DNA of 64,000 bases from Syntrophus sp. PtaU1.Bin005 (GTDB taxonomy: Bacteria; Desulfobacterota; Syntrophia; Syntrophales; Syntrophaceae). Position 1 is the stretch's first letter. Each line of letters opens with the position of its first letter. Both the position numbers and the translations under genes were made by a program. Shown here piece by piece: positions 22,181 through 27,976 of the stretch. The notes beneath the pieces are model-generated. The model was not told the origin of the DNA. It saw nothing but the letters and a program-made list of their open reading frames with translations, and ran no database searches. Location of the stretch: NCBI GenBank assembly GCA_002067745.1, contig MVRU01000006.1, forward strand, positions 1-64,000. The letters run 5' to 3'.

Positions 22181-23503
22181 ATGAGCACGTCATTATTGAC
22201 TTTTGCCAAAGGTGGGGTTCATCCTCCAGAATCCAAAGAAATTACCGAAAGATTGGCTATTGAGAAGATGCCTCTGCCCGAGGAGTTCGAAATTCCGCTC
22301 CTTCAGCATTTTGGCGCCCCATGCCAGCCTCTGGTCAAGAAAAAGGACCGTGTTGAGGAAGGCGATCTCATCGGCCAGGTTACGGGCGGACTGGGAGCCA
22401 ATGTGCATGCCAGCGTCACCGGAACCATCACGGATATCGGCACATCCATCGGGCCGGTCTCCCTCAATGTCCCCTCGGTGACCATTTCCAGGGATCTCGA
22501 AGCGCCGGATAAAACCTATACGCCTTCGGATTGGAAATCTCTGAGCCCGCAGGAGCTGCTTTCGAAAATAAAGGATGCCGGCATTGTCGGCATCGGCGGC
22601 GCCGGATTCCCGGCCCATGTCAAGCTGGCTCCGCCTCCGGGCACCAAGGTCGACAAACTGATCCTGAACGGCGCCGAATGCGAGCCTTACCTGACCACGG
22701 ACCATCGGGTCATGCTGGAAAAGCCTGAAGAGGTCATCGTGGGGGCCCAGATTCTCCTTCGCGTGTTGGGGATCTCGGAAGGGCATATCGGTGTTGAAGC
22801 CAACAAAAGCGACGCCATCGATGTCCTGCGGAAGGCCGCTGAAGCGCAGAAGCTCGACGGCGCGAAGATCTCGATTGACGCACTCCAGGTTAAATATCCC
22901 CAGGGATCTGAAAAACAGTTGATTGAAAGTGTGACCGGACGCAAAGTCCCGGGTGGCGGATTGCCTTTCGACGTCGGCGTGATTGTTCAGAACATCGGCA
23001 CAACGAAGGCTGTTTATGACGCTGTTGTTCTCAATAAGCCGCTCTATGAAAAGGTCATTACCATTTCCGGCAGGGGCATTTCGAGACCGGCCAACCTCCA
23101 GGTTCGGGTCGGTACGCGCATTCGGGACATCGTTCAATATCTTGGCGGTACGAAGCCGGATCTGGCGAAGATCGTCATGGGAGGCCCCATGATGGGATTC
23201 GCTGTATCAACTTTGGACATTCCTGTGACAAAGACGGTTTCGGGAGTCCTCTTCCTGACCAAAGAAGAGATCGATGATCAGCCCCATGGGCCCTGCATCC
23301 GCTGCGGATGGTGTGTAGAGGCCTGCCCCATGGGATTGTCGCCGAACGAGATCGGCCTTTATGTTGAGGCCGGACGGGCTGCGGACACGGCGCCTTTTGG
23401 AGTCTTCGACTGTTTTGAGTGCGGTTCCTGCGCCTTTGTCTGTCCTGCCAAGAGACCGCTGGTCCAGTTCATCCGCCTGGCCAAGCAAAAGGCAAAAAGA
23501 TAG
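22181..23503 (+). CDS. rnfC: Rnf complex subunit RnfC
   Basis: RnfC is the peripheral subunit that binds NAD(H) and FMN and carries two [4Fe-4S] clusters. The 440-residue protein begins with the RnfC N-terminal barrel (GGVHPPESKE), continues with the Rossmann-type NADH/FMN segment GIGGAGFPAHVKL and LNGAECEPYLTTDHR, a SLBB-like part around 280-330, and two ferredoxin motifs: CIRCGWCVEACPMGL (about 372-386) and CFECGSCAFVCPAKRP (about 411-426). It is shorter than the E. coli protein, which has a long repeat tail. First gene of rnfCDGEAB. Confidence 0.95.
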   Translation: MSTSLLTFAKGGVHPPESKEITERLAIEKMPLPEEFEIPLLQHFGAPCQPLVKKKDRVEEGDLIGQVTGGLGANVHASVTGTITDIGTSIGPVSLNVPSVTISRDLEAPDKTYTPSDWKSLSPQELLSKIKDAGIVGIGGAGFPAHVKLAPPPGTKVDKLILNGAECEPYLTTDHRVMLEKPEEVIVGAQILLRVLGISEGHIGVEANKSDAIDVLRKAAEAQKLDGAKISIDALQVKYPQGSEKQLIESVTGRKVPGGGLPFDVGVIVQNIGTTKAVYDAVVLNKPLYEKVITISGRGISRPANLQVRVGTRIRDIVQYLGGTKPDLAKIVMGGPMMGFAVSTLDIPVTKTVSGVLFLTKEEIDDQPHGPCIRCGWCVEACPMGLSPNEIGLYVEAGRAADTAPFGVFDCFECGSCAFVCPAKRPLVQFIRLAKQKAKR

Positions 23504-23529
23504 TCTAAAAGATAAGGAGCAAAGCCATC

Positions 23530-24582
23530 GTGGAGCAAGTAAAAGATACTCAAATTTCAGAACATCCGTTACCTGCATGCACGGTCTCCATTTCTCCGCA
23601 TGTCAAGAGCCGCGAATCCACGGCCAAGATCATGTGGACCGTGAATGCCTGTTTGTTGCCTCCCCTTCTTTTATCCGTTTTCATCTTCGGATTTCAGACC
23701 CTGATCATCACCCTGGTCAGCGTTTTCAGTTGCGTTATCGCCGAGGCGGTTTCCCAGAAGCTTCTTCACCGCTCCATCACCATCAAGGATGGGAGCGCCG
23801 TGTTGACGGGTCTGCTTCTAGCCTACATAATACCCCCTGGAGTGCCCTACTGGATGCCGATCCTGGGCGCGGTTTTTACGATCTACATCACCAAACATCT
23901 GTTCGGGGGGCTGGGCTTCAACATTTTTAATCCGGCACTGATCGGGCGCGCCTTCCTGGTGGCCACGTTCCCTGTGGCCATGACGTCGGCCTGGATCATG
24001 CCCATGAACGACTTCTCCATTTTCAAATACATGCAGCCCGGGGTCGATGCGGTCTCCACAGCTACCCCTCTTTATGTACTGAAGCATTACGGCCTGGCGG
24101 CCCTCATCGAGAAATACGGCGCTGTTTCCACCATGTACAAGGATTTCTTTCTTGGTGTGCGGCCCGGCTGCATCGGTGAAGTCTCCAATCTGCTCCTCCT
24201 CCTTGGAGGGCTGGTGCTGATCTTCAAAAAATACATCTCTTGGCACATTCCGGTTTCCGTTATTGCAACCATCGGTGTGTTGACCTGGATTTTCGGCGGT
24301 GAAGGCTACTTCAACGGCGATCCCATTCTGGCCGTTCTTACCGGCGGCGTGTTCCTTGGCGCCATTTTCATGGCTACGGATTACGTCACCTCACCCACCC
24401 AGAAATACGCCCAGCTTGCTTTCGGATTCGGGGTCGGCGCCATTACGGTTCTGATCCGCCTCAAAGGCGGCTATCCGGAGGGTGTCTGCTATGCGATTCT
24501 GCTCATGAATACCCTCACGCCGGCATTGGATTCATGGTTTCAACCCAAGCGTTTTGCTCCAGCGAAAGGTGCGACAAAATGA
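23530..24582 (+). CDS. rnfD: Rnf complex subunit RnfD
   Basis: RnfD is an integral membrane subunit carrying covalent FMN on an extracytoplasmic loop Thr. The 350-residue protein starts at GTG 23530 behind AAGGAGC and has about nine to ten helices, with the NQR2/RnfD signatures NIFNPALIGRAFL and TDYVTSPT. The flavinylation site reads DAVSTATPL (about 177-185): the usual Gly of S-G-A-T is Thr here, and the acceptor Thr is kept. The stop overlaps the rnfG start by ATGA. Confidence 0.94.
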   Translation: MEQVKDTQISEHPLPACTVSISPHVKSRESTAKIMWTVNACLLPPLLLSVFIFGFQTLIITLVSVFSCVIAEAVSQKLLHRSITIKDGSAVLTGLLLAYIIPPGVPYWMPILGAVFTIYITKHLFGGLGFNIFNPALIGRAFLVATFPVAMTSAWIMPMNDFSIFKYMQPGVDAVSTATPLYVLKHYGLAALIEKYGAVSTMYKDFFLGVRPGCIGEVSNLLLLLGGLVLIFKKYISWHIPVSVIATIGVLTWIFGGEGYFNGDPILAVLTGGVFLGAIFMATDYVTSPTQKYAQLAFGFGVGAITVLIRLKGGYPEGVCYAILLMNTLTPALDSWFQPKRFAPAKGATK

Positions 24583-25481
24583 ACGAATTTGTAAAAATAA
24601 CATTTCGCTTGACCCTTTCTTGTCTCATGGCTGCCCTGGTGATGGGAACAGCGTTCATCTTCACAGACAAGGCAAAGAAGCACAATGAACACGTCAATGT
24701 TCAGACAACGATGTTGAGCCTGCTCGGCTACAGCGATTTGAACCCCGCCCCCAAGGAATTGAAGCTTTATTCCCTCTATCGCTACATCATTGAAGAAAAG
24801 GGAACGACCTACCTGGGCTACATGGTTCCCGTCACCGAGTCGGGCAAGGAGTCCTATGAACTGCTCAAGCTGAACCTGGAGGGGAAGCTGATGCAGCGTG
24901 TGCCCATGAATATCTCCCCGGATGCGGCGGCTGAAGACGCGGAGCGTGCGACCGCTATGAAGGAGGCTCTGAAAACGGAGCAGGGCATTGCCTACCAGGA
25001 CCGGACCGTCGTAGCCCGCCTCGGAGATCAGCGCTTAGCCTATCTGCTCCCCGGCAAGTTCGGCGGATTCAAGACATTTATCAACGTCATTTTGTCTTTG
25101 AATCCAGATTTCGCCATCCGCGGCCTGGAAATCATGGAGCACGAGGAAGACCCCGGTCTGGGTGCTGAAATTTCCCAGAATTATTTCAAAAACCAATTTC
25201 GTAATAAATCCTTTGAACGTCTGAAATCTCTCGATGTCATCAAGGAGCCTCTGCCCGATGAGTATCGCGCCTATCTGAATGCGCCGGATAAGATGGACAA
25301 GGATAAAGCGGATGCCATTATCAAACAGTATGGTGAAAAGGACATTTACGCCCTGACGGGTTCAACGATTTCCAGCCGGTCTGTAACTGATGGTGTCAAG
25401 AACATGGTCAAGCGTTTCGCCTACAGGATCCAGGTCCTGAACGATGTGATTGCCGACCAGAAAATACCAGCTTTGATTTGA
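24579..25481 (+). CDS. rnfG: Rnf complex subunit RnfG
   Basis: RnfG is anchored by one N-terminal helix (about 8-30) with the FMN-binding domain outside the cytoplasm. The 300-residue protein starts at ATG 24579, overlapping rnfD. The ApbE target motif is ALTGSTISSRSVTDGV near residue 262, with acceptor Thr in GST. It is longer than many RnfG proteins (about 200 residues), with extra sequence around 60-130 containing an acidic helix. HEEDPGLGAEI is a typical FMN-domain motif. Confidence 0.93.
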   Translation: MNEFVKITFRLTLSCLMAALVMGTAFIFTDKAKKHNEHVNVQTTMLSLLGYSDLNPAPKELKLYSLYRYIIEEKGTTYLGYMVPVTESGKESYELLKLNLEGKLMQRVPMNISPDAAAEDAERATAMKEALKTEQGIAYQDRTVVARLGDQRLAYLLPGKFGGFKTFINVILSLNPDFAIRGLEIMEHEEDPGLGAEISQNYFKNQFRNKSFERLKSLDVIKEPLPDEYRAYLNAPDKMDKDKADAIIKQYGEKDIYALTGSTISSRSVTDGVKNMVKRFAYRIQVLNDVIADQKIPALI

Positions 25482-25498
25482 TATAAAGGAGGATAGTC

Positions 25499-26122
25499 TT
25501 GGCCGCCACGAAAAAAACCAACAGTCAGCTTGTCCTTGATGGGATATTTCTGGAAAATCCGATTTTCCGCCTGGCCCTTTCCATGTGCCCGGCCGTCGGA
25601 TTGACGACCTCCATCAAGAACGGATTATTGCTCGGCACGGCAGTCCTCTTCGTGCAAGTCTTTTCCAGCTGCACGATTGCTGCCATAAAAAACTTCATAC
25701 ACCCCCGGATTCGAATCCCCACCTACACCTTGACCATCGCCACTTGGGTCACGGTGATCGACCTGGTCCTTGCTGCCTATGTTCCTGATGCCTATAAGCA
25801 GGTCGGTCTCTTCGTAAAACTGATCGTGGCTTTCGCGATCATCACCATGCGCCTTGAGATGTTTGCCTGCAAAAACAGCGTCTCCGCCTCTTGGTGGGAC
25901 GGCATCGGCATGGGTTTCGGCTTCATGTTCGGCATGGTCACCATCGGTTTTGTCCGCGAGCTTCTCGGTTCGGGCATGCTCCTTGGCTACGATGTTCTGG
26001 GATTCAAGCCGCTGCTGTTCTTTGTTCTTCCTGCGGCGGGGTTTTTCTGCGTGGGTATCATGATGGCGATGTTCAACTATGTGGAAGTTGTTTACAATCG
26101 CCGGAAGGAGAGTAAGTCATGA
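25499..26122 (+). CDS. rnfE: Rnf complex subunit RnfE
   Basis: RnfE is a six-helix subunit that pairs with RnfA in an antiparallel arrangement. Translation starts at TTG 25499, placed 8 bases after a strong AAAGGAGG. The 207-residue protein carries LSMCPAVGLTTS and EMFACKNSV, whose cysteines are the expected ligands for the intramembrane [2Fe-2S] cluster shared with RnfA, as in Rnf structures. The stop overlaps the rnfA start. Confidence 0.93.
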   Translation: MAATKKTNSQLVLDGIFLENPIFRLALSMCPAVGLTTSIKNGLLLGTAVLFVQVFSSCTIAAIKNFIHPRIRIPTYTLTIATWVTVIDLVLAAYVPDAYKQVGLFVKLIVAFAIITMRLEMFACKNSVSASWWDGIGMGFGFMFGMVTIGFVRELLGSGMLLGYDVLGFKPLLFFVLPAAGFFCVGIMMAMFNYVEVVYNRRKESKS

Positions 26123-27087
26123 ACGCTTCGATAAAACGATCCGCTTTTCGGCCGGTCTGGTTGGTTCTTGCCCTGCTGTTCCTTCTTGCCGGATGTGAGA
26201 AAATTGATAATCCCTTCATCAAGAAGGGTGGATTCAAGGACGCCCGCTCCATCATGATCGAATTCGCCGGGGCGCCCGATGCGTCATGGGTCTCGGATCC
26301 CGCCAATTTCAAGGTTTTTCAGAAGAATAACCCCGATGTTCTCCTGCCGGTGAAGCAGGTGGATGTGGGCCCGGACAAGAAGACCGTCTTCTTGAAATTC
26401 GGGGAAGATCTTGATCTGAAACTGGCGCACACGGTCAGTATGGCAAGCATTCCATCCGAGGGGAAAGACATGGGCGCCTCGTTTCTGGACGTCAAGAAGT
26501 CCTATTTCGGCTACCTCTTTTCCATTCTCATCGGTGCAATGCTGATCAACAATTACGTATTCACCAAGTATCTTGGGCTTTGCGTCTTTATCGGAACATC
26601 CAGGAAAAAGAGTACGGCGGTTGGAATGGGGGTCACCTTTACCATCGTCATCGTCATCAGCGCCATGATCTCATGGTTCCTCTACCAGTTCGTTCTGAAA
26701 CCCTATCGGCTCGACTTTCTGCAGGTTGTTACCTTTATCGGCCTCGTCTCGCTGACCGTGCAGGCCGTCGATACCATCCTCCGCAAGGTCAACCCGGCCC
26801 TTTTCAAGGCCTTCGGTGTGTACCTCGTGCTGGTCATCGCCAACTGCGTTATTATCGCCGTTCCCCTGACTCTGGCGAGTGCCGAGTACAACGCCGCTGA
26901 AAGCTTCATGCTGGCCCTGGGTGCAGGCGGCGGATTCCTTCTTGCACTCTTTCTCATGGCATCATCCAGGGAGCGCCTGGAGTTGGCAAACGTGCCTCCC
27001 ACCTACCGTGGATTGCCCATCGCTTTTGTGGCTACAGGGCTCTTTGCCCTGGCCTTCATGGGCTTTTCCGGAATGGCGATTTTTTAA
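26119..27087 (+). CDS. rnfA: RnfA with N-terminal lipoprotein-type extension
   Basis: RnfA is normally about 190 residues of six helices. Here the protein has 322 residues. Residues 1-25 are a signal peptide ending in the lipobox LAGC with Cys26; residues 27-125 are a soluble, beta-rich, Ig-like-looking segment (VSDPANFKVFQKNNPDVLLP, then KKTVFLKFGEDLDLKLAHTV); the RnfA core begins near 127 (SYFGYLFSILIGAMLINNYV) and has LGLC (C155) and ANCVI as cluster ligands. No internal ATG with a ribosome site is seen at the core boundary, and the reading frame is continuous. ATG 26119 overlaps the rnfE stop and has GGAGAG nearby. RnfA has its N-terminus outside the cytoplasm in known complexes, so an exported lipidated extension is topologically possible. 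Confidence 0.9.
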   Translation: MNASIKRSAFRPVWLVLALLFLLAGCEKIDNPFIKKGGFKDARSIMIEFAGAPDASWVSDPANFKVFQKNNPDVLLPVKQVDVGPDKKTVFLKFGEDLDLKLAHTVSMASIPSEGKDMGASFLDVKKSYFGYLFSILIGAMLINNYVFTKYLGLCVFIGTSRKKSTAVGMGVTFTIVIVISAMISWFLYQFVLKPYRLDFLQVVTFIGLVSLTVQAVDTILRKVNPALFKAFGVYLVLVIANCVIIAVPLTLASAEYNAAESFMLALGAGGGFLLALFLMASSRERLELANVPPTYRGLPIAFVATGLFALAFMGFSGMAIF

Positions 27088-27115
27088 AATTAACTGAAAT
27101 GAATTGAGGTATGTC

Positions 27116-27976
27116 ATGGATCCTGTATTGATTAAATTGGCAATTGGAGGCATCGCGTTCCTCGGCTGCATCGGTCTGTTGTTCGGCATCGGCCTGGCGC
27201 TGGCCGCTCAGAAGTTCGCCGTGGAGGGCGATCCCAAGGTAGAAGAGGTCCTGGAAGTTCTGGCGGGGGCTCAATGAGGCGGCTGCGGCTTTGCAGGTTG
27301 CGAAGCATATGCCGAAGCGGTTGTCCACGACCCTGACGTTCCACCGAATCTCTGCTTTCCCGGCAAGGCGGAAGTGGCTGCGGCAGTTGCCGAAATTGCG
27401 GGAAAAACGGTCGGCGGTGTCGAAAATGTGGTTGCCCAGATCCGATGTTCCCGTATCGAAGGGCAGGTCAAACAGAAGTATTCCTATCTTGGTTTCGATA
27501 CCTGCGCAGGTGCAAGTATCGCCTTTGGTGGTCCGCAGGACTGCGCATACGCCTGCATCGGATTGGGCGACTGTGCCGCTTCCTGCCCCTTTGGCGCCAT
27601 TACCATGGAGCAGCAGTTTCCCGTTGTCGATGTGGAAAAGTGTGTCGGCTGCGGATCCTGTGTACGCGCCTGTCCCAAGAAGGTTATTGAGCTGATGCCC
27701 CTGAAGGCTCGCGTCTGGGTTCCCTGCAGCACAAAGGATCCTGGAAAGACGGTGAGGAACATCTGCAAGGTCGGCTGCATCACGTGCAAAATGTGTGTCA
27801 AGGCGTGTCCGGCGGGAGCGGTCAGTATTGAAAACGATGTGGTCCACATTGATCATGACAAGTGTCTGGCCTACGGACCGGACTGCCAGGAAGCCTGCGT
27901 TGCAAAGTGTCCCCGCAACATATTCCGGCCCTTCCGGAAGGAATTTAAAAAGGCGGGAGAGCTTGAAGCGGCCTGA
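27116..27976 (+). CDS. rnfB: RnfB, predicted selenoprotein (in-frame TGA at codon 54)
   Basis: RnfB is the iron-sulfur entry subunit for ferredoxin electrons. ATG 27116 (GAGG 7 bases before) opens the usual N-terminal membrane helix (about 7-31). The frame meets TGA at 27275-27277, then continues without further stops to 27976, giving 286 residues if TGA is read as selenocysteine. The residues around it are GAQ-Sec-GGCGFAGCEAYAEA: Sec54, C57, C62 and C80 fit C-x2-C-x4-C-x17-C of the RnfB/CoFeSP [4Fe-4S] domain, so Sec replaces the first cluster ligand. Further ferredoxin motifs follow (CIGLGDCAASCP, CVGCGSCVRACP, CITCKMCVKACP, CQEACVAKCP). A SECIS-like hairpin starts 10 bases after TGA. A conventional gene caller would start at 27374 and lose the membrane anchor and first cluster. 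Confidence 0.88.
27278..27313 (+). promoter_or_regulatory. Predicted bacterial SECIS element inside rnfB
   Basis: Directly after TGA (27275-27277), GCTTTGCA (27288-27295) pairs with TGCGAAGC (27299-27306): eight base pairs including one U-G wobble, capped by the triloop GGT (27296-27298). GGC at 27278-27280 or 27281-27283 can pair with GCC at 27311-27313 below an internal loop. The loop GG lies 18 bases after the UGA, the same spacing as in E. coli fdhF as I remember it (UGA, 18 nt, GGUC). SelB recognises exactly such a G-G-U loop. Confidence 0.8.

Follow-up and report, generated by a model that had tools for sequence, protein, structure and literature searches.

A predicted selenocysteine at the first cluster cysteine of RnfB in a Syntrophus genome

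The rnf operon and the interrupted rnfB frame

The window, the whole 64-kb stretch of DNA that was analyzed, contains an rnf operon in the order rnfC-D-G-E-A-B (22181-27976), with apbE upstream of rnfCDGEAB and rnfB as the last gene. The features of this operon, including those predicted within rnfB, are:

22181..23503, + strand: rnfC (TIGR01945, 530 bits), in the same operon as rnfB
23530..24582, + strand: rnfD (TIGR01946, 339 bits)
24534..25481, + strand: rnfG (FMN_bind, PF04205), between rnfD and rnfE
25499..26122, + strand: rnfE (PF02508 and NF009070)
26119..27087, + strand: rnfA (PF02508 at residues 134-319 only; TIGR01943 at 133-319)
27116..27976, + strand: rnfB, predicted to contain selenocysteine (Sec); 286 residues plus stop when read through TGA at codon 54
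27116..27214, + strand: N-terminal transmembrane helix of RnfB (residues 3-33 in the AlphaFold2 model)
27275..27277, + strand: UGA codon in frame, predicted to encode Sec54, where the N-terminal [4Fe-4S] motif has its first Cys
27287..27307, + strand: bacterial-SECIS-like hairpin inside the coding sequence, with arms at 27288-27294 and 27300-27306

The called start of rnfG overlaps rnfD, and its real start is probably further in. RnfA has an extra N-terminal region of ~130 residues with a lipoprotein-signal-like start (LLAGCEK), which matches nothing in Pfam; the RnfA domain itself starts near residue 133, and RnfA frames in related operons seem to be similarly long (~890-970 bp matched).

The rnfB frame starts at ATG 27116, contains an internal TGA at 27275-27277 (codon 54), and ends at the terminal TGA at 27974-27976. 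The initial annotation had described it as resuming after the internal TGA as a full RnfB, and its coordinates proved right. The read-through protein matched NCBIfam model NF005503 with 452.2 bits (cut-off 252) over residues 8-277, crossing the TGA. This model, the best one for the protein, is named "RnfABCDGE type electron transport complex subunit B" by NCBIfam. TIGR01944 was also above its cut-off (91.5 bits vs. 68.7), and the Pfam FeS domain (PF04060) was found at residues 49-81. The N-terminal [4Fe-4S] motif reads U54-x2-C57-x4-C62-x17-C80. The TGA had also been placed exactly on the first Cys of this motif, which agrees with our alignment: column 54 is Cys in 48 of 48 homologs (Sec counted as Cys), and so are the columns of C57, C62, and C80.

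An AlphaFold2 model of RnfB, built from 48 homologs, had a mean pLDDT of 89.9. Fold search matched it to the solved RnfB structures of A. woodii (9eri_B, E 3.5e-21, 42% identity) and C. tetanomorphum (7zc6_B, 37% identity). Both share the fold and the order of transmembrane helix, FdI domain, and polyferredoxin, but have Cys at the first FdI ligand, where the window protein has a predicted Sec; the A. woodii protein is longer and carries more clusters. Given model scores above cut-off, rnfACDEG neighbors, and a transmembrane helix followed by the four-Cys motif of FdI (Sec taken as Cys), the product is, judged by its sequence, an ordinary polyferredoxin subunit of the Rnf ferredoxin:NAD+ oxidoreductase apart from the predicted Sec54.

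UGA at codon 54 and its decoding

To compare codon 54 among relatives, as the initial annotation had proposed, we used 63 distinct RnfB genes from two genome collections. All three expected codons occur: TGA in 10 genes and TGC or TGT in 53, with TAA or TAG in none of the 63. With TGA at the identical codon in 10 distinct genes, it is due neither to chance nor to a local sequencing error. A degenerate 24-base pattern around the TGA matched 5 of 395 genomes, every time at rnfB, and a reversed control pattern gave no match in the same search. Wherever the operon could be read, the TGA-containing copies lie within a complete or contig-truncated rnf operon.

Compared with an 84%-identical rnfB of the same genus, the sequence past the TGA has changed mostly at third codon positions, as coding sequence does, and this includes codons 55-86, upstream of the first later start in the open frame (GTG 27374). 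When the two Sec genes of the genus were compared, synonymous sites past the UGA showed no significant suppression (P = 0.14). These data bear on two other explanations of the interrupted frame. The first is that rnfB is truncated at codon 54 (by nonsense mutation, assembly error, or pseudogene formation) and that a Cys-containing RnfB takes over its function; a candidate does exist, as a paralog with 76% identity and TGT at this codon is found on contig C129 of the same genome, outside any rnf operon there. However, the same TGA is present in nine further rnfB genes of other genomes, including a complete genome of the same genus, codon 54 is exclusively TGA, TGC, or TGT, and the sequence past the TGA is constrained at the protein level, all of which make truncation very improbable. 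The second is that two polypeptides are made deliberately, a membrane peptide of 53 residues and, further on, a ferredoxin from an internal start, for which GTG 27374, opening a frame of 200 residues, could serve. It is scarcely credible, considering that C57, C62, and C80, which precede this GTG, are kept in every homolog compared, that codons 55-86 evolve as coding sequence, and that the Cys homologs are single chains.

The genome of the window (2.9 Mb, 165 contigs, 99.6% complete) was also searched for the Sec machinery, whose presence the initial annotation had suggested checking. All four components were found: selA on contig C16 (608 bits), selB on C13 (370 bits), selD on C27 (376 bits), and a tRNA-Sec with anticodon TCA on C15. 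SelB was above the cut-off in all 10 genomes with TGA-containing rnfB, but it is also present in nearly all genomes with the Cys form, so the machinery alone has no discriminating power.

The selD gene (L018 on C27) has its own in-frame TGA at "GAGUACKLGP", the usual Sec site of SelD, and is therefore itself a selenoprotein gene; a hairpin was predicted after this TGA as well. Scanning the 64-kb window for further genes interrupted by UGA gave no other convincing candidate.

The hairpin of rnfB has a stem of 7 pairs and the loop AGGUU, with G at the second loop position; this G lies ~18 nt past the UGA. Such a layout is expected of bacterial SECIS elements (consensus of Zhang and Gladyshev, 2005). 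In the window sequence alone the fold was not significant (z = -0.72; P = 0.34 with codon-preserving shuffles), and much of the hairpin follows from the residues Phe59 and Ala64. Across the family, the hairpin did separate the two forms: all six tested stem pairs were formed in 9 of 10 TGA genes vs. 4 of 29 close Cys genes (p = 3e-5), and hairpin energies ranged from -5.3 to -13.0 kcal/mol in the former and from -0.9 to -6.7 kcal/mol in the latter (p = 4e-6), the genes not being phylogenetically independent in either comparison. Phe59, Ala64, and a GGC codon at Gly58 are commoner in TGA genes, and the stem is disrupted in most Cys copies within the genus of the window. An Rfam scan around codon 54 returned chance matches only, and no generic bacterial SECIS match was among them.

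The features expected of a bacterial selenoprotein gene are hence found together, namely a UGA at the Cys position of homologs, selA/selB/selC/selD, and a hairpin with an early loop G. The proposal that this RnfB is a selenoprotein was borne out computationally by the sel genes, the TGA/TGC/TGT alternation, and the SECIS-like hairpin, and on this comparative evidence UGA codon 54 is very probably decoded as Sec. SelB carrying Sec-tRNA(UCA) would bind the hairpin just past codon 54, and the ribosome would insert Sec at the UGA rather than terminate.

Distribution of Sec and Cys forms

A phylogenetic tree of RnfB was computed without column 54. All TGA genes fell into one group of 19 (support 86/76, not starred), the other 9 members of which are Cys genes. 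The two forms are intermixed inside this clade, and also inside the genus of the window, and at least four changes of the Sec/Cys state are required on the best tree. A single Sec clade without Cys forms was rejected (p-AU = 0.00013). In contrast, a topology in which the Cys copies of the Syntrophus group form one clade, which would permit paralog replacement, had a p-AU of 0.58. The simplest reading is one gain of Sec followed by several Sec-to-Cys reversions, the counts alone giving no direction.

Two genomes, that of the window (G000) and G001, have a TGA-containing rnfB in the rnf operon and an orphan Cys-type rnfB elsewhere. G001 is a complete genome of the same genus, a single contig of 3,179,300 bases. 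The orphan gene of the window genome is:

L102 (G000:C129) 1464-2294, + strand: orphan Cys-type rnfB, 76% identical, with TGT at the codon

There is no rnf operon around it on the short contig C129, where it adjoins ABC transporter genes and an alcohol dehydrogenase-like gene. The orphan of G001, at position 146694 (L099), is flanked by an hdrA-like gene and formate dehydrogenase-like genes. In two other genomes of the genus, G002 and G003, the rnfB within the operon has Cys, and no second rnfB copy was found in either.

A formate dehydrogenase-like gene of G001 appears to be split into two frames after "...NNIDHCART" (L099 10990-12039 and 9358-10941, both on the - strand). The split probably falls at the usual Sec codon, which is consistent with Sec use in the genus.

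Predicted role of Sec54 and related selenoproteins

Sec54 would take the place of the first of four Cys in the N-terminal ferredoxin-like domain of RnfB (FdI, also called B8). In the Rnf complex of C. tetanomorphum, the FdI domain has four Cys placed for a cluster, is mobile, and has been proposed as an electron shuttle linking RnfB with the metal site of RnfA/E (PMC9588780). In A. woodii, B8 shifts towards RnfA/E upon reduction and acts as electron donor of the [2Fe-2S] cluster AE1, and Na+ is drawn in as AE1 becomes reduced; mutations of the B8 cluster cysteines abolish ferredoxin-dependent NAD+ reduction and growth (PMC11889175). If the window protein works like these homologs, selenium most likely provides one of the four ligands of the FdI [4Fe-4S] cluster, and this mobile cluster would be the electron relay connecting the rest of RnfB with the [2Fe-2S] cluster in RnfA/E, in a step tied to Na+ binding. 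By analogy with the role of FdI/B8 (PMC9588780, PMC11889175), Sec54 is likely a ligand of the mobile cluster from which RnfA/E receives electrons. Selenium in this position could affect the potential, the kinetics, the oxidation resistance, or the exchange of the cluster.

With the UGA still read through, Sec54 might instead be a redox-active or metal-sensing selenol beside a three-Cys or otherwise rearranged cluster. Published lists do include an Fe-S oxidoreductase-like selenoprotein whose Sec lies in a UGH motif, along with other families of Fe-S-related proteins, direct contacts between Sec and such clusters as a ligand have been called largely untested (PMC13188914), and FdI can move within the complex (PMC9588780). 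On the other hand, residue 54 is aligned to an invariant Cys of a four-Cys motif, and the A. woodii enzyme is dead without its B8 cysteines (PMC11889175), making a selenol outside the cluster unlikely. Proceeding from Sec54 as a ligand, one could speculate that selenium tunes the RnfB cluster so as to ease reverse electron flow from NADH to ferredoxin in syntrophs and sulfate reducers, and that the cell swaps to the orphan Cys RnfB at low selenium. This combination is doubtful, and paralog switching by selenium supply is a hypothesis; if true, tuning and swap together would amount to a selenium-controlled Rnf pump.

In anaerobes, Rnf is one of the major pumps for energy coupling, and the cluster with the predicted Sec is located where electrons are handed over to the ion-translocating core. 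The natural Sec/Cys pair at one ligand, both among close relatives and as paralogs in one genome, makes the effect of selenium on a [4Fe-4S] electron-transfer center directly testable. It should also be mentioned that gene callers which stop at UGA will truncate such rnfB genes.

The initial annotation doubted whether the finding was new, and with good reason: a selenoprotein family with the motif UxxC, named "Fe-S cluster domain-containing protein" (PRK07118/NF005503), is tabulated in two reviews, of 2022 and 2026, which give ABC78902.1 and WP_258165141.1 as examples (PMC9312934, PMC13188914). The window RnfB belongs to the same NCBIfam model and has the same UxxC (U54-x2-C57). By accession range, we take ABC78902.1 to be a protein of Syntrophus aciditrophicus SB. 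Since NCBIfam names NF005503 as RnfB, RnfB with Sec has already entered the catalogues, and the window gene adds one more member to that family. The 2008 survey of Zhang and Gladyshev (PMC2398784), to which both family tables refer, is silent on the family in its main text, and the 19 selenoproteins reported for S. aciditrophicus in a 2006 survey do not include it (PMC1794560). Unlike the reading given here, the tables name neither Rnf, nor the operon, nor the cluster, so work on bioenergetics may have overlooked Sec-containing RnfB. No paper naming the family as RnfB, or discussing or testing Sec in RnfB, was found in a search that covered mostly open-access main texts; the only paper found with RnfB, selenoprotein, and selenocysteine together has five selenoprotein genes, all of them others (PMC5109826). 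The Rnf link of this catalogued family thus appears to be undiscussed in the literature.

Other listed selenoproteins are related in part. A Sec-containing RnfC-like family (ISME J 2016, PMC5029168) and PrdC are related to an Rnf subunit, but to a different one from RnfB, and no in-frame TGA interrupts the rnfC of the window operon. Sec-containing HdrA and HgcB are Fe-S proteins in which Sec replaces a Cys, as predicted for the window RnfB, although these subunits are unrelated to RnfB and have other roles.
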